From Candidatus Omnitrophota bacterium (GTDB lineage Bacteria; Omnitrophota; Gorgyraeia; Aquiviventales; Aquiviventaceae), in contig JAHFGV010000013.1 of assembly GCA_023247255.1 (NCBI GenBank), positions 1-39,618 on the forward strand: a DNA stretch of 39,618 nucleotides, in the 5' to 3' direction. Within the stretch, counting starts at the first letter, position 1, and each line of letters opens with the position of its first letter. The position numbers were made by a program, and so were the translations under genes. The notes under the pieces were generated by a model that searched no databases, was not told the origin of the DNA, and saw nothing but the letters and a program-made list of their open reading frames with translations. Of this stretch, positions 2,671 to 39,579 are shown piece by piece.

Positions 2671-3139
2671 TCGAGAAGGAAACGCCAGGATGGTCGATGT
2701 GAGTCCCAAAACGCCGACACTTCGACACGCCATCGTTCAAAGTGTCCTCCGGTTATCGCCCGAGGCGTTTGAGGCGATTCGGCGGCAGGCACTGAGAAAA
2801 GGCGATCCGTTCACCGTCGCCAAAATCGCAGGCATCCAGGCGGCGAAGCGCACTTCCGAATGGATTCCCCTTTGCCATCCGCTACCCGTCGAATTTCTAG
2901 ATATCCGATTTGAGCAGGATGCAGCGACCCGTTCGATCCGTATCGTGACCGAGGCCACGACGACCGCTAAGACAGGAATCGAGATGGAAGCCTTCGTTGC
3001 TTGCGCGGCGGCGGCCTTGACACTCTACGACATGGTTAAAGCGGTCGATCCCTCGGCGACGATCACTGATTTGCAGCTCATCCGTAAAACCGGTGGCAAA
3101 CAACCCTTTGAAAGAGATGTTTCTGTCTTTTATCGTTGA
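2633..3139 (+). CDS. moaC: Cyclic pyranopterin monophosphate synthase MoaC
   Basis: MoaC converts the MoaA product 3',8-cyclo-7,8-dihydro-GTP to cyclic pyranopterin monophosphate, the second half of the first step of Mo-cofactor synthesis. The 168-residue protein carries the opening motif FSHVDREGNARMVDVS (9-24), CHPLP (81-85), KTGIEMEAF (113-121), YDMVKAVD (132-139) and KTGGK (152-156), which together hold the known active-site His, Glu, Asp and Lys positions. The start at 2633 overlaps mobA. No other start precedes the conserved FSHVD segment closely. Confidence 0.96.
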   Translation: MPNSTALPFSHVDREGNARMVDVSPKTPTLRHAIVQSVLRLSPEAFEAIRRQALRKGDPFTVAKIAGIQAAKRTSEWIPLCHPLPVEFLDIRFEQDAATRSIRIVTEATTTAKTGIEMEAFVACAAAALTLYDMVKAVDPSATITDLQLIRKTGGKQPFERDVSVFYR

Positions 3140-3177
3140 TACTTTCACTAGCAGCCTGCGAGTCACTGGTCACTGAA

Positions 3178-3690
3178 ATGCGCGCAGCTGTCGTGACGAT
3201 CAGCGATCGTTCTTTTCGGGGAGAGCGGCCCGACGTCAGTGGCCCGGTGCTTAAGGGGCTATTGGAAACATCTGGCATCACGCTCATCGAGGCTGTGATC
3301 ATTCCGGATGAGGCATCTCTGATTAAGCGGACGCTCGTCCGCCTCTGTGACGAGGAGAACTGTGAGCTGATCATCACGACCGGAGGCACAGGGCTTTCTC
3401 CCCGCGACGTGACGCCGCAGGCCACCCGGGAAATTATCGACAGAGAGCTCACTGGGATGGAGCAGGCGATCCTGCAGGAAAGCCTGAAGCAGACACCCTA
3501 TGCCATGCTCTCGCGAGGGATCGTCGGGGTGCGCAATCAGACACTCATCATCAACATGCCCGGCTCTCCTAAAGCGGTCCGTGAATGTTTCGCAATCGTT
3601 CAGCCCGTCTTGGATCATGCAGTCAAACTGCTACGGGATGAAAACCCCTATGCGATGCACGGTGAAAATTGTCACAAAAGAAAGAACTAG
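3178..3690 (+). CDS. mog: Molybdopterin adenylyltransferase (MogA/MoaB family)
   Basis: This protein adenylates molybdopterin with ATP to prime it for MoeA-catalysed metal insertion. The 170-residue MoCF domain shows the signature TTGGTGLSPRD (67-77) and PGSPKAV (128-134), with an N-terminal VVTISDR strand. MogA and MoaB share this fold and I cannot separate them by eye. I prefer ATG 3178 to an in-frame TTG at 3136, because the extra residues do not resemble the family, though no clear ribosome site precedes either. It follows moaC by 38 bp and is followed by a membrane exporter gene. Confidence 0.9.
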   Translation: MRAAVVTISDRSFRGERPDVSGPVLKGLLETSGITLIEAVIIPDEASLIKRTLVRLCDEENCELIITTGGTGLSPRDVTPQATREIIDRELTGMEQAILQESLKQTPYAMLSRGIVGVRNQTLIINMPGSPKAVRECFAIVQPVLDHAVKLLRDENPYAMHGENCHKRKN

Positions 3691-3703
3691 GCGTGTCCTA
3701 CTC

Positions 3704-4432
3704 ATGCTATTGATTTTTTTGGTGTTTCTAGTGGCGATGCTCTACGCCTCAGTAGGCCACGGCGGAGCCTCTGGGTATCTGGCCGTGATGTCGCTGATAG
3801 GGGGTTACTCCCCAGCACTGATGAGCACCAGTGCCTTGATCTTGAACCTGCTCGTGGCCGGCACAGCATGGCTGACGTTTTGGCGCATGGGGCATGGCTC
3901 ATGGTCAGAGCTGTGGCCGTTCGTGGTCTCGTCCATACCGGCGGCTTTCATCGGTGGGTGGCTGGCGGTTTCCGTACAGACGTACCGATTGCTCCTGGCC
4001 GGCTGCCTACTCGTGGCAGCGATGCGCCTATCCCTACCGTCCCTACGGGAAGAGATTCATTGTCAGGCACCCCCACTCTCCGTTGCCCTACCTGTGGGTG
4101 GCGTTCTCGGAGTGGTTTCAGGGATCGTCGGGGTGGGAGGAGGAATCTTCCTCAGCCCGCTTATGGTACTCCTGCGATGGGCGGATATGAAACGAACCGC
4201 AGCGATCTCTGCTGCTTTTATCGTAGTGAACTCGCTTGCCGGATTGGCCGGACGGCTGATCGCGGGACGGCTCTTAATCGACTCAATGGCTCTGATCCTC
4301 ATCGCGGCTTTGATGGGTGGTGTCGTTGGCTCGCGATTGGGAGCCAAGCATTTTTCGGGATTGTGGTTGCGTCGTCTGCTCGCGGTGGTTTTGGTTGTGG
4401 CAGCTGGGAAATTGGTCTTCTCTCATGCTTGA
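3704..4432 (+). CDS. TauE/SafE-family membrane transporter
   Basis: A 242-residue integral membrane protein with about eight hydrophobic segments in two repeats. Each repeat starts with a glycine-rich motif: GHGGASGYLA near residue 20 and GIVGVGGGIFLSP near 145. This is the pattern of the TauE/SafE family (older name DUF81), whose members export sulfite, sulfoacetate or other small organic anions; the substrate here cannot be read from the sequence. The start at 3704 is inferred from the hydrophobic beginning, as no clear ribosome site is visible. The stop overlaps the start of the next PII gene (ATGCTTGA), so the two are probably translationally coupled. A role in nitrate or oxyanion handling is only suggested by context. 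Confidence 0.88.
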   Translation: MLLIFLVFLVAMLYASVGHGGASGYLAVMSLIGGYSPALMSTSALILNLLVAGTAWLTFWRMGHGSWSELWPFVVSSIPAAFIGGWLAVSVQTYRLLLAGCLLVAAMRLSLPSLREEIHCQAPPLSVALPVGGVLGVVSGIVGVGGGIFLSPLMVLLRWADMKRTAAISAAFIVVNSLAGLAGRLIAGRLLIDSMALILIAALMGGVVGSRLGAKHFSGLWLRRLLAVVLVVAAGKLVFSHA

Positions 4433-4796
4433 GATAATCGCCATCGTCCGTCGGAATAAAGCCCTAGCCACACAACAGGAATTGGCTCGGATTGGAGCTC
4501 CTGGGTACAGCCGGTTGAGTGTGCTAGGACGCGGGCGGCAGCGCGGGCTACGTACTGAGACCAGTAGTGAAGGATTGCAGTTTCTTCCAAAAGTCCTCTT
4601 TGATCTCATCGTTGATGAGGCAGAGGCTCAAGAGGTAATCGAAGCGATCATTCGAACGAATCAGACCGGTGAGTTCGGCGATGGGAAGATCTTCGTCAGT
4701 GAAGGACTTGAGTCCTATCGCATCTCTACAGGAGAGCAAGTAGCCGCATCGAATCCTGTGATAACTGGGCTTTTGCAAAAACAGCCAACACGTTGA
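4425..4796 (+). CDS. PII-family nitrogen regulator, NifI2-like
   Basis: PII proteins are cytoplasmic trimers that bind ATP/ADP and 2-oxoglutarate and control nitrogen enzymes or transporters. This 123-residue protein opens with MLEIIAIVRRNK and has VLGRGRQRGL, FLPK, NQTGEFGDGKIFV and RISTGE, the PII framework. The T-loop is atypical, lacks the GlnB uridylylation context, and the FLPK plus NQTG pattern resembles NifI2, one half of the NifI1/NifI2 pair that switches off nitrogenase in archaea and some anaerobes. The start at 4425 overlaps the exporter stop. Its partner lies 240 bp downstream. No nif gene is visible, so the target here is unknown and may be nitrate uptake. Confidence 0.88.
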   Translation: MLEIIAIVRRNKALATQQELARIGAPGYSRLSVLGRGRQRGLRTETSSEGLQFLPKVLFDLIVDEAEAQEVIEAIIRTNQTGEFGDGKIFVSEGLESYRISTGEQVAASNPVITGLLQKQPTR

Positions 4797-6703: not shown

Positions 6704-6850
6704 TGCTCGCGGAATTTCATGACAGGCTTCATCGTCGAGAAACGCTGTCATGCTGATTTGCGAGACTCAATAAAATGGATCTCGCGAAGCGTCCATCACA
6801 GGACTTCGGCGGACGTTCACCAACGCCTTGTGGCGGGTGGCATTTATGGC

Positions 6851-8218
6851 ATGAGACTACGATATGGGTGTGTGGGAGTTGTTGGGGTTTGGCTGGTACT
6901 GGCGACGTCTGCGGCAGCCGCTGAGGGTGGTTCTCGAAATCTGTTGATGGTGATGGATCACGGGCTTGATCAGTTAGGCAAGCCACAGTCGTTTGTCAGT
7001 GGGCATCTGAGCGTCAAAACGGGTGGGGAGTTTCGCTACCGACTGGAACTGCGCGATGACTTTAATTTCAATGACGATGCGTTTGAGGATGACGCCGTCC
7101 GTTTGCTTCGCACGCGGTTGCAGATGGACGTTAACGCAGGAAAAACCCTCCGCGCGTTCATCCAAGGTCAGGATGCAGAGAGCTTCGCCGGCAGCAGCCT
7201 CAACCGCACCAACGGATTTATCGACCGCTTAGATTTACGTCAGCTCTTCGTGGAGCTGACGAGCCCCATGGAGGAGCGAGCTATCCAGTTGAAGGTTGGG
7301 CGACAGGAACTTGCCTATGGCGATCAACGCTTCGTAGGGGCATTCGATTGGTCCAACGTCGCTCGCGTCTTCGATGCCGTCAAGGCGAGTTGGACGCCGA
7401 GCGACTGGGCGTAGATAGACGCCTGGTTCAGCCAAGTGGTGCTCATCGACCGCGTCCGGCCGGACTCGGCCGACCATGCCGATGACTTCTACGGACTCTA
7501 TGCGTCGATCAAGCCCCTCAAAGATCATGCACTGGATACTTTTCTCTTCATCCGACATGATCGGGACAATGAATTGCGCGGAGAGATTACCAGTCACCGA
7601 GGTCAGCTCAAGGAGTACACCCTCGGCTCCCGGTTCAGGGGCAAGCGCGGGGCGTGGGATTATGGGCTGGAGGGTGCGTTTCAATTTGGCTCTCGCGCCC
7701 ACGAAGACATCGAAGCCTGGGCCTGGCACAACGAGCTGGGCTACACCCTAGCGGACATTCCGTGGAGTCCGCGCCTGGGCATGGAATACAACCACGGCTC
7801 AGGTGATGACGACTCCAGCGATGGTGAAGTCAGCAACTTCGACAACCTGTTTCCGACGAACCATATGCACTACGGCACTATCGATTTCGCCAGCCTACGC
7901 AACCTGGATCACGTTGAGGTTAACCTTACGACGAAACCGGCCAAGAGACTAACTCTCTTGGCGAAGTACCATTGGTTTTTCCGCGATACAAACAAGAGCG
8001 CTTGGTTCAATGCCGGCCAAGGTGTGATCCGCGCTTCAGGAGTGAATGCGAGTAAGACTCTCGGCCAGGAACTGGACCTGTTAGCCAAATGGCAGATCAG
8101 CCGCCATGTGGAGAGCGGGATCGGCTACTCCCATTTTCATGCGGGGGCCTTCGTCAAGGACACAGGTGTCAGCGACGACGCGAACTTCTTCTATTGGCAA
8201 ACCACCGTCAAGTTCTGA
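6851..8218 (+). pseudogene. Alginate-export-type outer-membrane porin, interrupted by one amber codon
   Basis: Two adjacent ORFs in the same frame form one beta-barrel protein of about 455 residues, split by a single TAG at 7412-7414. The N-terminal part (187 residues) has a signal peptide ending in SAAAA, then repeated strands such as RTRLQMDV and KVGRQELAYGDQRFVGAFDW, typical of the alginate-export porin family. After the stop the same frame goes on with IDAWFSQVVLIDR and ends with YWQTTVKF, a normal outer-membrane C-terminal aromatic. No frameshift is needed. The gene may be recently inactivated, translated by readthrough, or hit by a sequencing error. Its place between nitrate transporter and reductase suggests a nitrate-permeable porin. 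Confidence 0.8.
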
Positions 8219-14229: not shown

Positions 14230-15816
14230 TTACTCAGAGACGTTGTCGAGCAATGAAGGCAACAGGGAGAGAGATTTCCGAGGAACGATTTCTATCGCTG
14301 AGAGCCTAGCGGTAACAGCATCGAGGTAGTAGAGCATCCCGGTCCCCTCCATATAACCGATGGAACTTCCTGGGCGAACCATCAGTAAACGACGGGGCTG
14401 TCCATCGGTCCAAGAAGCGGCTTCAAGCAGAAACACGGCATCCTCATCCAAAAACAGAATATAATTTCCTTGAAGCGCCCAGAAGGCCTGTTGGATCTGG
14501 CGACCTTGGTGGAACACCCAGCGGGTTAGAGACTCGGTGGACAAGGGGACTGAGTTTGAACCCTCATTCCTTTTTGAGTCCGCGATCCTGGAGTCGATCT
14601 GTGTCGAAAACGATCGGGACCCCTGTGCCTGGTAGGCAACAGCCGCGGATGTGTCCGTCGGGTTTCGCTGCGACAGCGCCCGCTCCTCTGGGAATTTCCA
14701 CAACTTGGAAATATCCAAGATACCGATGGCGTTGGATTGCCACACCAACAGCCGCTGGCGATGTCGATCCCATTCGAACCCAAGCACATCCCGTTTGGCT
14801 AACCCGTAGGGGGGCACATTCGCCAAAAGCTGTCCTTGGGGTCCATGGAACAACACCCGATTTTCTGCAAGAACCGTCAATCGCCATAATCCCTTCGACT
14901 CGGTGAACATCTTCGACAGATATGGATGACGGATCAAAATCTCATCGTTTTCATTGCCATGATCCCGCTTTCGCACAGAACCGTCCTCCATCAGGGCATA
15001 GAGCGTGGTGTGGTATAGCCCGTAGCCCAGGACGGGTCCCATGATTCGCGGATGGATGGCCATGGTGTCGATGTCGATCTGATCCAAGAACCCATCGGCG
15101 CTGAGTGCGAACAAAGGATTGGGTATATGCGAGGACCACTGTACTTGAATCGGTCGATCCGGAAATAAACGCGTCAAATCCACCGACTGGGTATGCCGAT
15201 GTTTCAGCTCCAATCCCAGGAAACGCTCTTGTTTGGGTAGTCGCAGGCGCATCAGTAAAAAGGGGCTACCCTCAACCGAAGCATGCCACTGGATCCGTCC
15301 CCCTCGAAACGGTGAGTTTGAATTCACTAACGGCCAGGATTCCCCGGACCCCGAGTCATAGACGATTCCGCCTTCCGGTTGGCGTCCGTTCATCAGGATT
15401 AAGAATCGACTGCCAGAAAGAGGGATCAGGGATTGGAAGGCGCCTGGCAAAAGCTGTGTACGATTCGGCTGCTTAGGCCATAAAAGCAAAGGAGCTAGAG
15501 CTGTGGCTTTTTTAGGTTGGACAAAGACCGTCCGACTCCAGGGCTCGTGATCTTTCAAGACCACGCGCACAGGATAACCACCGGGTAACAGATCGCGAAT
15601 GACTGTCGGGGTGCGTTCTGTGTAACGGCTGTTCCCCAGATAAACGGAGGCTCCAGATGGAAGGGTGGACAGGTGGATCAGCCCTGTTGTTACAAGGCCA
15701 GGTTCTATCCCTGGCTTGAAGATGTATCCCAAGACATAGAGGATAACCAGCGGACAAACGATGAGGTAGACCAGGAGCAGCACATAGAACACCGTTTTTC
15801 TAAGAAGAATCGACAT
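14230..15816 (-). CDS. Membrane-anchored PEGA-domain protein
   Basis: A 528-residue protein with one N-terminal membrane helix (about 8-32), then a PEGA domain (about 45-110: GLIHLSTLPSGASVYLG, TERTP, LPGGYPVRV), a short carbohydrate- or wall-associated beta fold found on outer faces of membranes. The remainder looks like repeated beta strands, possibly a propeller, with no catalytic motif I recognise. ATG 15816 is chosen because the hydrophobic anchor starts there; 47 earlier in-frame codons are the antisense of bufC. It overlaps the 3' end of bufC by 17 bp and precedes the glycosyltransferase by 2 bp, so the genes are probably co-transcribed; a role in surface polysaccharide is an inference. 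Confidence 0.8.
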   Translation of the reverse strand: MSILLRKTVFYVLLLVYLIVCPLVILYVLGYIFKPGIEPGLVTTGLIHLSTLPSGASVYLGNSRYTERTPTVIRDLLPGGYPVRVVLKDHEPWSRTVFVQPKKATALAPLLLWPKQPNRTQLLPGAFQSLIPLSGSRFLILMNGRQPEGGIVYDSGSGESWPLVNSNSPFRGGRIQWHASVEGSPFLLMRLRLPKQERFLGLELKHRHTQSVDLTRLFPDRPIQVQWSSHIPNPLFALSADGFLDQIDIDTMAIHPRIMGPVLGYGLYHTTLYALMEDGSVRKRDHGNENDEILIRHPYLSKMFTESKGLWRLTVLAENRVLFHGPQGQLLANVPPYGLAKRDVLGFEWDRHRQRLLVWQSNAIGILDISKLWKFPEERALSQRNPTDTSAAVAYQAQGSRSFSTQIDSRIADSKRNEGSNSVPLSTESLTRWVFHQGRQIQQAFWALQGNYILFLDEDAVFLLEAASWTDGQPRRLLMVRPGSSIGYMEGTGMLYYLDAVTARLSAIEIVPRKSLSLLPSLLDNVSE

Positions 15817-28548: not shown

Positions 28549-30129
28549 TTAGATGACACGCTGATAGGCTTCCGGCTCTAGTTTCCAGACAGCCACGCCG
28601 CAGAAACGATCACCTTCCGGACAAATAGGCCGAGCCCCAGCCACGGCGCGAGGCCAACAGGGCGCTTGGATGTACTTGCCGATCTCAGGGAAGCGTTCTC
28701 TGACTTGCAGCACTTCATCCCGGCAGGCGTTCCAAATTTCCTCCTGCGCCGTATAACACAGGCGTTGCACCCATTTGTGGTGAAGGTGCAAGAGATCTCC
28801 GGATTCCTCAAAACGAATCGGAAAAGCATTGGGTAACAGATACAGGGCATACTCCTGTCGTACCCCGCAATCGAGCAGTTGCTCGATGGCTTTCCAGATC
28901 TCCTGCATGGTCTGTGTATAGAGGGCATGGGCCTGCGGGCTGTGTGTGATCAGGATGGGTGTGATGTAGTCCGGACGTCCGCTCATAAAATGCGCTGCTA
29001 GGATGGGTCGTGAGCCAGGCACCATGCGGTGGCGTTGATCCTGGGAATCGGCTGTGTGCGAGAGTTTCTTGCGAAAGGTAAAGTGCGGATGGACCATCGC
29101 ACGCGAGAGCTTACTTAGGGTCGTCAGCGTCAACGATTCACTCAGATAGCGATTCTTGGCGGGATGGAGAACGAGTTCGATCGCCTGCGCTTCGGTGAGC
29201 TGATTGCAAGTGAGCCCCAAAATCGAGCGCACAGCCTGAGCCATCGTCGTTTGAGCATGTGCCTTGTAGTCGATGAGCTTTGACGTCCAGTCCTCCAGCG
29301 AGTGGTCAAATTCCTCAAGGAACGCGAGCGTGGTTCCATTGCGTTGACTGCCATGGAACCGTTCGAAGGCTTGATGCTCGAGGGTTTCGTTGAGGGGAAT
29401 CGGATCCTCGGTGAGCGCCATGAAAGCTGGATCCACCTTGTTCACTTCCTCGACCATCTGTTGCACGATGAGTCGCTGCTCTAGCGGCACGTCAAACTGC
29501 TGGCACAACCTCCAATACCGATGGAGGGTCAGGCCGCTGATCGTGTGGTACAAGTGGGCGTGGGTCGCAACCGGAAGGATATAGCGCGCGATTTCCTGAG
29601 CGCGTTTCTTGATAGCAGAAGCCCAGCGTTTTTCCTGTAGGTTTCTCGATGGGAAAATCCGCCGGTATTCATCGATGACCACCGGTTGCACAAGCTCACC
29701 GAGGCGGTGGTAGACAGACATCTGGACCTGCACGGCCTTTAGATAGAGGCTGCGCGCGGGCTCATCTAACGGGGGGATGGTGAAATGCTCCGGCTTGACC
29801 TCGACATAGCGTTGGCTTACTTGCTCCGAGTTATAAAACGGATGCGCATGGAGGAACGACCAGAGAAACTGCCGGGAGACCCGCTCGAGCACGAACTGGA
29901 AGGTGGGATGCTGGATCGTCGTGTGGTGGCCTGCCTTGTAGATGCTTTCGGCGATACGATCCCGCTGAAGTTTAGCCTGCTCGTCTTTGTCGACGTCGAG
30001 CGGTGCGATCACTCGGGAAGAATAACAGGTACGCGCTGTCGCAATCGCCAGATTGTACGGCTCCTGAAAGGTATTCACCAGCCGGATAACTGGCTCAGGA
30101 GTGATCGTGGCATGCGACGGGGTAGACAT
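28549..30129 (-). CDS. Double-length ThyX-like (FAD-dependent thymidylate synthase family) protein
   Basis: A 526-residue protein that looks like two ThyX domains in tandem. The first half has ATARTCYSS, HHTTIQHPTFQFVLERVSRQ and SEQVSQRYVEV, corresponding to the ThyX FAD/dUMP region, but the RHR signature is replaced by LHAH. The second half has DQRHRM followed by SRP, closer to the RHR motif, and ITHSPQAHALY. True ThyX proteins are about 220-280 residues; long ThyX-like proteins are known in several phyla and often have uncertain activity. ATG 30129 (MSTPSHATITPE) is chosen since earlier codons are not conserved in style. Confidence 0.8.
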   Translation of the reverse strand: MSTPSHATITPEPVIRLVNTFQEPYNLAIATARTCYSSRVIAPLDVDKDEQAKLQRDRIAESIYKAGHHTTIQHPTFQFVLERVSRQFLWSFLHAHPFYNSEQVSQRYVEVKPEHFTIPPLDEPARSLYLKAVQVQMSVYHRLGELVQPVVIDEYRRIFPSRNLQEKRWASAIKKRAQEIARYILPVATHAHLYHTISGLTLHRYWRLCQQFDVPLEQRLIVQQMVEEVNKVDPAFMALTEDPIPLNETLEHQAFERFHGSQRNGTTLAFLEEFDHSLEDWTSKLIDYKAHAQTTMAQAVRSILGLTCNQLTEAQAIELVLHPAKNRYLSESLTLTTLSKLSRAMVHPHFTFRKKLSHTADSQDQRHRMVPGSRPILAAHFMSGRPDYITPILITHSPQAHALYTQTMQEIWKAIEQLLDCGVRQEYALYLLPNAFPIRFEESGDLLHLHHKWVQRLCYTAQEEIWNACRDEVLQVRERFPEIGKYIQAPCWPRAVAGARPICPEGDRFCGVAVWKLEPEAYQRVI

Positions 30130-30197
30130 GGGATACGGGTATCTTAGTGGGTTCCGTATGGCTGTGCAATGATTCTGTCGGGTACCCGGACGATGGT

Positions 30198-31322
30198 TCA
30201 CACCTCAAGGGTCTTTGGCGCCTCAGTCAGCAGTCGGCAGCCGTTGGAGGTGACGACAATCATGTCCTCAATGCGCATGCCTCCGGCGTCTGTGTAGTAG
30301 AGGCCAGGCTCGACCGTGACGACCATTCCCGCTTTGAGGATGTCCGGTTTGCTGCTTATGCGTGGCGGTTCGTGGATTTCCAGACCGACGCCGTGGCCGG
30401 TTCCGTGGAAGAATCCCTGCATGCGCCCGTTCTGCTCGCCGGTCTTGAAGCCTTGCTGCTCGAATGATTTCAGAATCGCCTGGTGCACCGTCGCGCCATC
30501 CACGCCATCCTTGATCATTCGATAGGCAATCTCCTGGCCATCCTTGACGGCTTGGAACATCCGTTTCACTTTCTCAGAGGCCTTACCCTTGACCACGGTG
30601 CGTGTGATGTCGGCAAAGTAGCGAGTGCTGGCGTGTTGGGGAAAGACATCCATGACGATTGGCTCATTCGCGCGAAGCGCCCCGCTGCCTTCGTTGTGCG
30701 GGTCCACTCCTTGGATGCCGCAGGCGATGATCGTATGTTGGGCGACACAGTCACGCTCCATCATGACGAGATGCATGGCCTTGCGCAGTAGCTCTGCCGT
30801 GAGTGGTTGATTGCCGATCCACAGTTCCCCGTTGGATTGGATCTGGCTGTTGCGCACAAGGTCAACGGCCCGCTCCAGCGCTTCTTCCGTGATGCGTAAG
30901 GCCTGGGTGAGGTGCGCGATTTCTTCCTCGGATTTGATCATCCGTTCCGGAAAGAAGGGATCCGGTCGGGGACTTACCGTGTAACCACGTTTACGAAGAC
31001 CGTCCGCGAAACTGCATCCGAAGTCGGTGGGAACTTCTACAGCGTCGGTCGATGCCTGCTTGAGCAATTCATCCACGATGTCCAAGAAAGAAGTTTCTGC
31101 TCCCGTCCGTTGCTTAGCCTGCTTGGCCAGTTTCGAGGAAGAAAGCACTTCATCGACTCTGGCTTGGGTCTTGGCCCGGTCGATTTCCAAATCGCTCATC
31201 ACCACCCGGCGACGGCCATCGACCTGGAGGAAGATAAAAAGATCGGGTGCTAAGAATCGGGTCGCGTAATAAAGATTCGCGTTCTTTTCGCTGTCAGCAA
31301 TGATGAGTTGAGCAACGGACAT
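30198..31322 (-). CDS. M24-family Xaa-Pro aminopeptidase-like protein
   Basis: A 374-residue protein with an N-terminal creatinase-like domain and a C-terminal pita-bread metallopeptidase domain. The five metal ligands appear in order: Asp in VMDVFPQ, Asp in YFADITRT, His in FFHGTGHGVGLEIHE, Glu in TVEPGLYY, and Glu in RIEDM. It should cleave Xaa-Pro N-termini or dipeptides. First gene of the long - strand run and divergent from the DUF2089 operon. No strong ribosome site is seen. Confidence 0.92.
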   Translation of the reverse strand: MSVAQLIIADSEKNANLYYATRFLAPDLFIFLQVDGRRRVVMSDLEIDRAKTQARVDEVLSSSKLAKQAKQRTGAETSFLDIVDELLKQASTDAVEVPTDFGCSFADGLRKRGYTVSPRPDPFFPERMIKSEEEIAHLTQALRITEEALERAVDLVRNSQIQSNGELWIGNQPLTAELLRKAMHLVMMERDCVAQHTIIACGIQGVDPHNEGSGALRANEPIVMDVFPQHASTRYFADITRTVVKGKASEKVKRMFQAVKDGQEIAYRMIKDGVDGATVHQAILKSFEQQGFKTGEQNGRMQGFFHGTGHGVGLEIHEPPRISSKPDILKAGMVVTVEPGLYYTDAGGMRIEDMIVVTSNGCRLLTEAPKTLEV

Positions 31323-36599: not shown

Positions 36600-36843
36600 T
36601 CCTCGCTGCGAAAGCTATGATTTTGGCCTCGTCGCTGTCTCAGAAAGCTGAACAGATACCCGCTAAGCACTTCGCTAATATTGAATATATTGAATGCCTG
36701 ACCCCAGTCGCTCTACGCCTAAGGCGGGACTTCGGTCGGGCACTCGCCGCTTCTAAGGAATGTCGATTCTCCTATTCGTCGGATCGACTTCCATCAAAGC
36801 AGTCGCGGCTCTCTTCGATTTCTCATTTAGGTCAAAGACAAAA
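36600..36843. other. Gene-free region with AATATT-rich hairpin
   Basis: About 36679-36708, CTAATATTGAATATATTGAA followed by TGCCTGACCCC, reads on the - strand as GGGGTCAGGCA then AATATTCAATA-like palindromes. Similar sequences flank REP-associated or IS200-type transposases in other bacteria; that comparison is from memory. No gene is supported. Confidence 0.35.
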
Positions 36844-36914
36844 GCCGGTGAGAGGAATCGAACCTCCGACCCGCTGTTTACGAAACAGCTGCTCTGCCCC
36901 TGAGCTACACCGGC
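36844..36914 (-). tRNA. tRNA-Thr (anticodon CGT)
   Basis: A complete cloverleaf of 71 nt: acceptor GCCGGTG/CACCGGC, D-stem GCTC/GAGC, anticodon stem GCTGT/ACAGC around the loop TTCGTAA (anticodon CGT, reads ACG), T-arm with TTCGATT. CCA is not encoded. A T-rich TTTTGTCTTT follows the gene. Two copies of its first 40 nt are at 37733-37772 and 38164-38203 on the same strand. Confidence 0.95.
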
Positions 36915-36948
36915 GCAAACGTTGAGCGGTTGGGTCTGATTCTGACGA

Positions 36949-37605
36949 CTAGTGAGAGGACTCAGCTCTTTCGCTATCTGTGGCTTCGGCAACTTCAGCA
37001 AAGAACTCATCAGAGTTAGTATCGCGATGCTCCCACTTCTTGAAGTACTCGTCAGCCTCATCTTCGGTGAAGCGTCGGAGCGTTACCGTATGCACGGCAT
37101 CGATCTCTTCGATCTTGAGGTGCAATTGACACGCAATTTCAGTACCGTACGAAGGAATCTTCAGGTCGCGCAGGAGCAGACGCATCGTCTCCATGCCGCT
37201 GAGATTCCATCGTTCGGGTGACCTAAGAATATCCCGGTTGTTGAGCTGCGCCTCTCTAAGAGTGACCTTAATCGGCTTGTCACTGCGATTGAATACTGCG
37301 ATCAGGCATTCGGCGGGGGACTCTGAGTCGTCGGGGCCAAGCCAGCCAAGGGTCTGCTTGATGCCATACCAGGCATTCACAATCTTCTTGTCTCGGACCA
37401 GAAGAGCAACTCCAAACCTATTAGGAACGAGCAGTTTTCGTGCTTCGTAGATGTCAGAGTACACGACAGTAACGGGTTGACCCGTCTCATCATACTTCGT
37501 CGAAGCCATTCGGCCCTGAACCCCCTGTCCACAGCCAGAACACCACACGCTGATGAGGAGAAGCGCTGCAACAAGGCAACGATGCGGAAAGGTGACTACA
37601 GACAT
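36949..37605 (-). CDS. Lipoprotein carried between tRNA-Thr fragments
   Basis: A 218-residue protein with a signal peptide whose lipobox-like end is WCSGC (about 22-26), so a likely lipoprotein. The body has beta-rich segments (QPVTVVYSDIYEARKLLVPNR, KPIKVTLREAQLNNRD) and an acidic C-terminal tail (DEADEYFKKWEHRD). I recognise no family. The gene sits between a 5' half of tRNA-Thr with leader (37617-37772) and the intact tRNA, on the same strand, as the cargo of one unit. Its upstream 120 bp matches the leader of the 86-residue gene. Confidence 0.75.
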   Translation of the reverse strand: MSVVTFPHRCLVAALLLISVWCSGCGQGVQGRMASTKYDETGQPVTVVYSDIYEARKLLVPNRFGVALLVRDKKIVNAWYGIKQTLGWLGPDDSESPAECLIAVFNRSDKPIKVTLREAQLNNRDILRSPERWNLSGMETMRLLLRDLKIPSYGTEIACQLHLKIEEIDAVHTVTLRRFTEDEADEYFKKWEHRDTNSDEFFAEVAEATDSERAESSH

Positions 37606-37616
37606 GGGAGCTGAGT

Positions 37617-37732
37617 AGTTGTCTGGTCGTGTGGCTACGTTCCTTAGCAGGGCGTTAGCAGAATACCCTCTCTGACCTGTTGTCTCATCTCATTTCCGCT
37701 TCGAAATCGCTCAAATCCGCCGATGTATCTCA
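37617..37732 (-). repeat. Cassette leader, copy 2
   Basis: Aligns with 38047-38163 over about 116 bp, with shared words GAGATACATCGGCGGATT, TAACGCCCTGCTAAGGAAC and AGCC. It lies directly between a 5' tRNA half and the start of the 218-residue gene. A TATTCT at about the position of TATACT in the other copy could be a -10. Confidence 0.85.
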
Positions 37733-37772
37733 TGGTTACGAAACAGCTGCTCTGCCTCTGAGCTACACCGGC
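37733..37772 (-). pseudogene. Truncated tRNA-Thr, 5' half, copy 2
   Basis: 40 nt from the acceptor start through the anticodon loop, with 2 differences from the intact tRNA at 36844-36914. It breaks off after GTAACC, then a leader. No 3' half follows. Confidence 0.9.
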
Positions 37773-37776
37773 GAGA

Positions 37777-38037
37777 CTATCTCACGAATTGCAGGATAAC
37801 CGGAACCGCGACAATCAGAGTCAGCAAGAGAATGACTGCGGTCATCCATGACATGATGTCATTGGAACGGATAAGATGTTTTGCTAGAATTGCATTTATG
37901 ACCGCGTGTGCTTTTCGTACCTCCTGTTGCATACCGGGGTCGTAATTCCGTTCACTGTCAACTATGAACTCCAATAGCTTATCGAGTTGCTTCTTTTCGC
38001 TCTTGTGCAGTGACCGAATATTGGAAACATCTCCCAT
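37777..38037 (-). CDS. Small membrane protein (86 residues) carried between tRNA-Thr fragments
   Basis: A mostly helical N-terminal part (NIRSLHKSEKKQLDKLLEFI) and one C-terminal membrane helix (about 63-85: MTAVILLLTLIVAVPVILQF). Not a recognised family; the layout (soluble helix then tail anchor) resembles small toxin, holin-like or regulatory proteins, which cannot be decided. It occupies the unit between tRNA half copies 1 and 2, on the same strand. A leader equal to that of the 218-residue gene precedes it. Confidence 0.7.
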   Translation of the reverse strand: MGDVSNIRSLHKSEKKQLDKLLEFIVDSERNYDPGMQQEVRKAHAVINAILAKHLIRSNDIMSWMTAVILLLTLIVAVPVILQFVR

Positions 38038-38046
38038 TGGCTGCTT

Positions 38047-38163
38047 ATTGTGCCTGGTTGTTTGGCTGTGTTCCTTAGCAGGGCGTTAGCAGTATACCCT
38101 GCCTGACCCGTTTGCTCGTCTCAATTCCGCTTCAAAATCTCTGGAATCCGCCGATGTATCTCA
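38047..38163 (-). repeat. Cassette leader, copy 1
   Basis: Matches 37617-37732. Contains GGGTATACTGCTAACGCCC: a TATACT that could be a -10 for the downstream gene, though no clear -35 is at 17 bp. Ends about 10 bp before the start codon of the 86-residue gene. Confidence 0.85.
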
Positions 38164-38203
38164 TGTTTACGAAACAGCTGCTCTGCCCCTGAGCTACACC
38201 GGC
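38164..38203 (-). pseudogene. Truncated tRNA-Thr, 5' half, copy 1
   Basis: 40 nt identical to the first 40 nt of the intact tRNA-Thr, then divergence at the base of the anticodon stem. It lies where a tRNA start would be expected after the promoter at 38246-38275. Confidence 0.92.
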
Positions 38204-38245
38204 AAATCGAATTCTCATAGTCAAATGGAAAGGATCTTGCCGAGT

Positions 38246-38275
38246 ATCTTACCGGAGGGTGGCGAGTGCCGTCAA
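38246..38275 (-). promoter_or_regulatory. Sigma70-type promoter ahead of the tRNA-Thr locus
   Basis: On the - strand TTGACG (38275-38270), an 18-bp spacer, TAAGAT (38251-38246). The start would be about 35 nt before the first tRNA half, a usual leader for a tRNA. It would transcribe both truncated copies and both small genes before the intact tRNA. Confidence 0.6.
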
Positions 38276-38308
38276 TACAACGCCGCCATCCACAGAGCCG
38301 GGCGTTTC

Positions 38309-39496
38309 TTAGGATGGGATGTTTGGCATCGAGCCCTCGGCCTTGGCAGAGGCCGTTGAGCTTGCCATCGGACGCACAAGACTGACACATACGGTTGTGC
38401 CCATAGCGGTGCGGCTGGAAAGATGAATGGAGCCGCCATGCAGCTCGAAGTAACGCTTGGCCAATGGCAGGCCAATGCCGGATCCGGCGTAAGCCCGATT
38501 GAGTCGGCGATCGACTTGGAAAAACGGTTCGAATACCCGTTGCTGGTCTTCCTCGGGAATGCCGATGCCGGTATCGCAGATCTCGATCTTGACTTTTTCA
38601 TCGGTTGCCGTAACTGTTACATCCACACGTCCGCCATCGCGATTGAATTTGACGGCGTTATCGATCAGGTATTCGAAGGCGGCGATGCAGCGGGATCGAT
38701 CCACTTCCACGACCACCGGGCTTGAGGGAAGGTGCAAGGCAATGGCGATGGAACGGGTCTCTGCCAGAGGCATCACCCGTGTCAAGGCCTGCTGGATGAG
38801 TTCTTGAACGGGAAGTTCCTTAAGCTGCAGGATGATGTTAGCACCCTGCATCAGGTCGATGAGTTGCTGGAGCAAGCGATGGAGCCGCTCGTAGGCATTA
38901 ATCAATATATCGACGGCGTGCTGTTGCTCGGTGGATAATTCACCCAGGGTTTTGTCGCAAAGCAAATAAAGCCACTCACTCATGAGGCATAAAGGGGTGT
39001 TGATCTCATGGGAGATTACGGCCAAGAACTGGCTCTTCATATCGTTCAGCTCGACGAGTCGGCGGTTCAACTCCTCAAGTTTGAGCAACCCCTTGCTGGT
39101 ATGTTGGAGCTGACGGGTGAGGCTGATTCGTTGTTGGCATCGGTAGAGGATGGCTTGGATCTGGGTGGTGTCGAAGGGTTTGGTGATAAAGTCGCAGGCG
39201 CCCTGTTGCATCGCTTCCACAGCCCCTTCAACCGACGCGTAGGCGGTGACGACGATGACACTCAACAGGGGATCGATGTGTTTGAGTTCACGCAGCAGTT
39301 CGATGCCAGCCAGCTTGGGCATCCGAATGTCGGTGATAACGACATCGGCGTGCTTCTGAGAGAAGATATCTAAGGCCTCCAGACCGTCGTGGGCGATGCG
39401 GACCGAGCATCCGTATTCCTTGAGGATCTGCCCCAGGATGTGGCAAATCTTGGGTTCGTCATCGACTACTAACACGTCGAGGGATATATCGGGCAT
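38309..39496 (-). CDS. Hybrid response regulator-histidine kinase
   Basis: A 395-residue soluble protein with a receiver domain first (DVLVVDDEPKICHILG, phospho-acceptor Asp in VVITDIRMPK near 56, TKPFD near 107), then a coiled coil and a HisKA domain with the acceptor His in AVISHEINTPLCLM (near 167), and an HATPase domain with EYLIDNAVKFN, DTGIGIPEEDQQRVFEPF and GSGIGLPLAKRYFELHGG. No output or membrane domain. It probably works in a phosphorelay with another kinase; no partner is adjacent except a possible gene starting at 39580 on the other strand. ATG 39496 (MPDISLDVL) is chosen over an upstream in-frame start at 39523. Confidence 0.92.
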   Translation of the reverse strand: MPDISLDVLVVDDEPKICHILGQILKEYGCSVRIAHDGLEALDIFSQKHADVVITDIRMPKLAGIELLRELKHIDPLLSVIVVTAYASVEGAVEAMQQGACDFITKPFDTTQIQAILYRCQQRISLTRQLQHTSKGLLKLEELNRRLVELNDMKSQFLAVISHEINTPLCLMSEWLYLLCDKTLGELSTEQQHAVDILINAYERLHRLLQQLIDLMQGANIILQLKELPVQELIQQALTRVMPLAETRSIAIALHLPSSPVVVEVDRSRCIAAFEYLIDNAVKFNRDGGRVDVTVTATDEKVKIEICDTGIGIPEEDQQRVFEPFFQVDRRLNRAYAGSGIGLPLAKRYFELHGGSIHLSSRTAMGTTVCVSLVRPMASSTASAKAEGSMPNIPS

Positions 39497-39579
39497 CGTG
39501 CTGGCTCTTTTTGAAGGGCTCAAGTTTGCTTAATAAAGCTCAAGGATGCATAACGGTTTTGAAGTCAGATAGAGTAAGT

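Follow-up and report, generated by a model that had tools for sequence, protein, structure and literature searches.

A 39,618-nucleotide stretch of Omnitrophota DNA (the window, a portion of a 60-kb contig) carries at its tRNA-Thr(CGT) gene an array of two units, each made of a 5′ half of that tRNA, a conserved leader of ~115 bp, and one open reading frame (ORF). From sequence comparison, we consider it fairly probable, at roughly 60%, that these units are non-autonomous, promoterless one-gene cassettes that use tRNA genes of one Omnitrophota family as docking sites and are moved by a recombinase acting in trans. This reading rests on the array architecture, on junctions that coincide in the units at tRNA-Thr, on a foreign base composition in two genera, on the variation of the cargo genes, and on empty sites in relatives. 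Four units bearing the leader were found in the genomes searched, all in one family: two in the source genome (G000), one at the same locus of another genus (G022), and a fourth, more decayed one in G026, of a third genus, at tRNA-Pro(GGG). G000 is a 2.18-Mb draft of 64 contigs that is ~91% complete, and the named relative that matches it best is a “Candidatus Omnitrophota” metagenome-assembled genome.

Array layout and leader anatomy

Read along the minus strand, the locus runs from the kinase gene through a tRNA 5′ half, a leader, the 86-residue ORF, a second half, a second leader, and the 218-residue ORF to the intact tRNA-Thr(CGT), all of it present in the sequence with the layout, coordinates, and ORF sizes claimed by a first-pass annotation of the window. 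The response regulator and histidine kinase gene (38309 to 39523), recognized by Pfam and by synteny in nine relatives (G005, G008, G010, G011, G014, G015, G020, G021, and G022), is the conserved left neighbor of the tRNA-Thr(CGT) locus in the family. It is followed by the tRNA promoter region (38204 to 38276), with a consensus match TTGACG-18-TAAGAT at 38275 to 38246, and by the 5′ half of unit 1 (38164 to 38203), which is 100% identical to tRNA nucleotides 1 to 40, the identity being certain for nucleotides 1 to 37. The first leader (38045 to 38163) opens with an inverted copy of tRNA nucleotides 1 to 13, contains the repeat CTGCTAA-N4-CTGCTAA, and precedes cargo ORF 1 (37777 to 38037; 86 amino acids), whose product has a hydrophobic C-terminal stretch and belongs to no known family. 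Only 4 bp past its stop codon begins the half of unit 2 (37733 to 37772; 95% identity), followed by the second leader (37613 to 37732), which has the same direct repeat and is 88% identical to unit 1 over half and leader. Cargo ORF 2 (36949 to 37605; 218 amino acids), likewise of no known family, has a signal/lipobox-like N terminus, and the array ends with the intact tRNA-Thr(CGT) gene (36843 to 36914).

The copies of the first 40 nucleotides of the tRNA are thus spaced 858 and 431 bp in the window, and the unit lengths are 431 and 858 bp in G000 and 668 bp in G022. The half and leader together form a block of 153 nucleotides (37620 to 37772 versus 38051 to 38203; 88% identical), outside of which the two G000 units have no detectable likeness. 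An Rfam search of the locus matched the tRNA only. In a consensus promoter scan, the sole promoter-like match on the minus strand lies ahead of the first half, where the first-pass annotation had placed a promoter, and a GACTAT/TACAAT-like −10 element stands 13 nt ahead of the half in both G000 and G022. No internal promoter-like match was detected on the coding strand of the array, nor was any terminator-like site found by a scan of the array. Elsewhere in the window, neighboring plus-strand ORFs at 6719 to 7414 and 7436 to 8218 match consecutive parts of an alginate-export family, as if one gene had been split, and a 550-residue protein encoded on the minus strand (28549 to 30201) matches the thymidylate synthase ThyX family in two separate places.

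In the three Thr units, identity to the tRNA extends through the anticodon loop (nucleotides 31 to 37, invariant), and the junctions coincide directly after it. The half had been drawn at first pass as 40 nt, and such copies were found, but because nucleotide 38 is A, C, or G among the three units, followed by CATGAG in all of them, the shared part is best drawn as nucleotides 1 to 37. Nothing common was detected upstream of tRNA nucleotide 1 at the right ends of the units. The inverted copy of nucleotides 1 to 13 opens all three Thr leaders and can pair at 12, 12, and 13 of 13 positions (G-U allowed), a degree of pairing equaled by 3, 2, and 0 of 2000 shuffles. In both G000 units, a predicted 54-nt hairpin closes the tRNA 5′ end, and the three substitutions of G022 preserve or improve the pairing; the whole-fold stability of unit 2 is no better than that of shuffles (z −0.93). 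Further along, ~75 bp from the anticodon loop, the direct repeat CTGCTAA-cgcc-CTGCTAA, with a period of 11 bp, is invariant in all four leaders and, across the window and the fetched tRNA loci, exclusive to them. Two such heptamers on the same helix face would resemble a protein-binding site. Coding potential of the leader was rejected, as its reading frames are broken between copies.

The locus in related genomes

When the half-leader block was searched in 147 genomes, the whole 153 nt were found in one other, G022 (JACQRE010000140.1, “Candidatus Omnitrophota”), of the same family and another genus, at 83% identity; because the block recurs at the same locus with an E value of 9e-39, it is not a chance match. 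The G022 array is preceded by the same kinase gene and consists of the same half and leader, an unrelated 168-residue gene, and then another tRNA half, at which the contig terminates a few bases from the crossover. The 3′ half of this tRNA-Thr is absent from the G022 assembly; mixed array states would break an assembly at the crossover, where the contig stops. GC content is 68.6% up to base 15,300 of the contig and 47.2% from there to its end, with 53.4% in the leader and 48.1% in the cargo gene. Between the kinase gene and the array lie a transposase fragment and an AAA ATPase gene of 42% GC (2845 to 4776 of locus L034), in a genome of 68% GC.

The fourth unit was obtained by searching a 23-mer of the leader core, with ≤3 mismatches, in 384 genomes of the class, which yielded one further genome, G026. 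Since a reversed control pattern matched twice in the same search, this match counts for its tRNA setting alone: the core lies between 5′ pieces of tRNA-Pro(GGG) and an intact tRNA-Pro(GGG) and is followed by one gene of the MUG113/T5orf172 GIY-YIG type with one in-frame TGA. The initial 18 nt of the core are exact, CATGAGATA stands 50 bp ahead of it, and GC content declines from 66.8% to 52.5% at the unit. The tRNA-Pro pieces are decayed and contain inserts, and their alignment continues beyond the anticodon loop, so the crossover point is unreadable here. An empty-site comparison through the neighboring gene failed, as that gene adjoins no tRNA elsewhere. Separately, similar palindromic repeats (GCCACACxGCATxGCGxxTCCGC) break up 15- to 18-nt tRNA 5′ pieces of G020 (L048, 1269 to 1440) and G026 (L058, 1237 to 1300) within or close to the D-loop; after the broken piece of G020 comes a complete but different tRNA-Thr(CGT).

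Empty sites, with the tRNA directly after the kinase gene or a kinase-like coding end, were found in G011, G013, and G021; an empty and filled pair inside one species was not encountered among the genomes compared. Other inserts, with no matching leader, fill the interval between kinase gene and tRNA in G014, G008, G005, and G020, and the first 16 nt of the tRNA (G014 and G020) or the first 13 nt (G008) are left in front of the insert. These leaderless inserts, which include a toxin-antitoxin-like pair (G005) and an RHH-type gene (G008), may be different events. That of G014 follows the same plan without a leader, with the 16 nt of the tRNA 5′ end, a zinc-ribbon/HEAT-repeat gene, and the intact tRNA-Thr (L007, 571 to 1500).

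The 86- and 218-residue proteins share no similarity by blastp, the cargo of leader-bearing units belongs to no known family except in G026, and searches of the cargo proteins in plasmids, viral contigs, and genomes of the family gave matches in their own genome only. Structure predictions for two cargo proteins reached mean pLDDT values of 40 and 43 and were set aside, and a single-sequence AlphaFold model of the 218-residue protein was uninformative. The first-pass annotation had proposed looking among relatives for the leader, for additional tRNA-Thr(CGT) halves, and for different cargo: leader and halves recur in G022, the leader does so again in G026, and different cargo as well as empty sites were seen. 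Of the two outcomes it had named as contrary to serial insertion, neither occurred, as the units do not appear as an invariant pair (cargo differs and sites are empty) and are not a tandem duplication with homologous cargo (the cargo proteins are unrelated).

The composition of the units found in relatives (G022 and G026) supports horizontal arrival, while the G000 cargo ORFs, with 45.2% (86 residues) and 52.7% (218 residues) GC against a window mean of 55%, are not sharply foreign. Leader 1 is 88% identical to the G022 leader and 86% to leader 2, so the two G000 units are not each other's closest relatives; leader 2 is 72% identical to the G022 leader, and the three are therefore not equidistant. 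The kinase genes of G000 and G022 are 67% identical at the nucleotide level. This pattern of leader and kinase identities points to separate arrivals from a shared pool and not to duplication in place.

Copies of tRNA 3′ ends are a further feature of G000. Exact copies (≥15 nt) of the gene's own 3′ end lie ≤400 bp downstream of 21 of the 44 tRNA genes, and inverted copies (≥11 nt) lie within 80 bp of 18; with another tRNA's end as a control, the counts were 0.2 (direct) and 1.05 (inverted). These loci are L062 to L091 and L128 to L138, examples being tRNA-Thr(TGT) at 599 to 670 of L063 and the tRNA-Ser genes of L036. As the bodies between the copies have common motifs (GAAGGGAGCCGCGACT...GTGGCCGACC...GGCGCC), they look like gene-less mini-elements of one family that sit at tRNA 3′ ends. 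Similar 3′-end copies were seen at tRNA-Thr in G006, G014, G021, and G052.

Proposed mechanism and alternatives

According to the cassette model, a circular cassette (leader, one ORF, and tRNA 5′ half) would be inserted when the 7-nt anticodon loop in its half recombines with that of the chromosomal tRNA, the recombinase being supplied in trans. The old 5′ half would remain at the left, before the leader, while the half of the cassette would rebuild the intact tRNA at the right, allowing repeated, stacking insertions. As the simplest model for the Thr units, loop recombination with a cassette-borne half would explain why the leader follows the left half, why the tRNA is rebuilt, why units stack, and why they have nothing in common ahead of tRNA nucleotide 1 at their right ends; anticodon loops often serve as the overlap region of tyrosine integrases (PMC8371274). 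The repeat CTGCTAA-N4-CTGCTAA would be a putative binding site, on one helix face, of the recombinase or a helper protein. Without promoters of their own, the cassettes would be read from the tRNA promoter, as the single upstream promoter-like match and the lack of terminator-like sites suggest. The hairpin that each half forms with the start of its leader may indicate where RNase P cuts the messages apart, a step suggested by the hairpin and the weakest of the model. Recombinase, circle, transcription, and RNA processing are the parts of the model that we infer.

Serial insertion at the anticodon loop, as put forward at first pass, is partly supported: it agrees with the junctions, the foreign GC content, the cargo variation, the empty sites, and the second tRNA, whereas the lack of a linked recombinase, the total of only four units in a single family, the unreadable crossover in G026, and the cargo without known families (other than in G026) count against it. 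None was detected among 34 ORFs of the window scanned against Pfam, in line with the first-pass annotation, no unit contains an integrase or a remnant of one, and no recombinase could be linked to any leader-bearing unit. A search of G000 for tyrosine recombinases gave two, on other contigs and both XerC/XerD-like, one located after a topoisomerase-like gene and the other next to a gene resembling tRNA nucleotidyltransferase. The search of this ~91% complete genome thus revealed no dedicated tyrosine integrase, and the enzyme would either have been lost or be one that acts in trans. We hold to be less likely than not a bolder version, a gene-capture platform different from integrons, in which one-gene cassettes would be placed by a dedicated recombinase in the anticodon loops of several tRNA genes of the family, driven by the tRNA promoter, and cut by RNase P into single-gene mRNAs.

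Wider searches gave no additional units. Plasmids and phages gave no match by blastn. A search of viral contigs for the exact leader core gave no real match; its one 18-mer hit falls in T-rich, repetitive sequence away from any tRNA and was judged to be chance, as were a weak covariance-model match in one of 384 genomes of the phylum (G182; E value of 0.003 per genome, no tRNA nearby) and weak matches without tRNA of a four-unit profile in G019 and G013 of the family.

The alternative that survives best, and which we regard as unlikely, is that each unit is what is left of an ordinary integrase-bearing element that once entered tRNA-Thr with a 5′ fragment and then shrank. Integrase and most genes would have been deleted, the leader would be the left attachment region, and one gene would have survived by chance. 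A 5′ tDNA fragment is found in some known islands, though rarely, and tandem islands are rare too (PMC4383910); in G022, a transposase fragment and more foreign AT-rich DNA lie next to the array. The three Thr units nevertheless follow one compact plan, in which the intact ORFs stop 4, 5, and 34 bp ahead of the next half, and independent deletions would need the same stopping places every time, with an integrase remnant left in no unit.

Less probable again is spread without any site-specific recombinase, by homologous recombination through the 153-bp half-leader block and the tRNA at an insertion-tolerant locus. Such tolerance would fit the quite different inserts that G005, G014, and G008 hold in the same interval. 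Homologous recombination would account for the spread of existing units, but neither for their first origin nor for the exact loop junction, and the leader recurs at tRNA-Pro without a tRNA-Thr half. We find it improbable that half and leader serve stable regulation as a cis-acting RNA (a tRNA-like hairpin, RNase P, or stability element) controlling the downstream gene, with mobility secondary or absent. The predicted hairpin of both G000 units and the pairing maintained or bettered in G022 would suit that role, whereas the cargo is unrelated and of foreign composition, the second leader part is kept in G026 as a direct repeat and not as a hairpin, and the overall fold of unit 2 does not exceed shuffles. 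Plain tandem duplication in one genome, with the ORFs diverging afterwards, might be suggested by the adjoining similar blocks but is very improbable, since the cargo proteins lack similarity and the leader stands ahead of different genes in the other genera.

Comparison with known systems

The cassette model shares much with the tRNA islands collected in Islander (PMC4383910), namely, a tRNA dock, the anticodon-loop crossover class, a fragment on one side and the regenerated gene on the other, and possible tandems. Of the 3919 tRNA islands recorded there, a 5′ fragment is present in 159 (4%), and 4 consist of at least three islands in tandem (PMC4383910). As in such islands, the 5′ fragments are upstream of the intact tRNA, on the correct side and the same strand, and the site is empty in G011, G013, and G021; no tyrosine integrase is present in the units or the window. 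Islander islands carry an integrase and span 2 to 200 kb, while the present units of 431, 858, and 668 bp have one gene and no integrase. Islander accepts inserts of 2 to 200 kb with an integrase and rejects those that are <2 kb or integrase-less (PMC4383910), and it would therefore reject the present units on both counts.

Integron arrays and CALINs resemble the array in their promoterless single-gene cassettes, the conserved recombination-like element between them, and the outside promoter, and CALINs are integrase-less as well. By the consensus promoter scan, the cassettes of the array are promoterless, and each has one gene and a copy of the repeated element. The conserved element here precedes the gene instead of following it, however, and the boundary is a tRNA anticodon loop. 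IntI, which is optional for a CALIN, is lacking, with XerC-/XerD-like recombinases alone in G000, and the attC boxes GTTRRRY and RYYYAAC are absent from all four leaders on both strands, for which reason we rejected attC membership. Tycheposons are cargo-bearing elements at tRNA genes, as are the present units, but they are multi-kilobase in size and carry recombinases.

The Xer-dependent pdif modules of Acinetobacter (PMC12907356) are likewise small gene modules without a recombinase of their own that are moved in trans; they have dif-like flanks, whereas the flanks here are tRNA halves. In tRNA-dependent lysogeny, integration of the phage disrupts a host tRNA within a short core, and the phage makes up for the lost tRNA function (PMC10865867). 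Such phages bring an integrase and a complete tRNA gene of their own, while the present cassette would give a 5′ half only; G020, in which a different complete tRNA-Thr comes after the tRNA piece, is closer to these phages than the cassette array is. A Sulfolobus paper considered for comparison was set aside, as it describes remnants of larger elements and not single-gene arrays.

We are doubtful that the array is categorically new. If the units are mobile, the tRNA gene would take the role of attI and its promoter, accepting and expressing serial single genes while the tRNA stays intact. Such units would have been missed by Islander and could be common in uncultured phyla. The array works like an integron array yet is none, and its closest structural counterparts are integrative elements that target tRNA genes, here reduced to a single gene.
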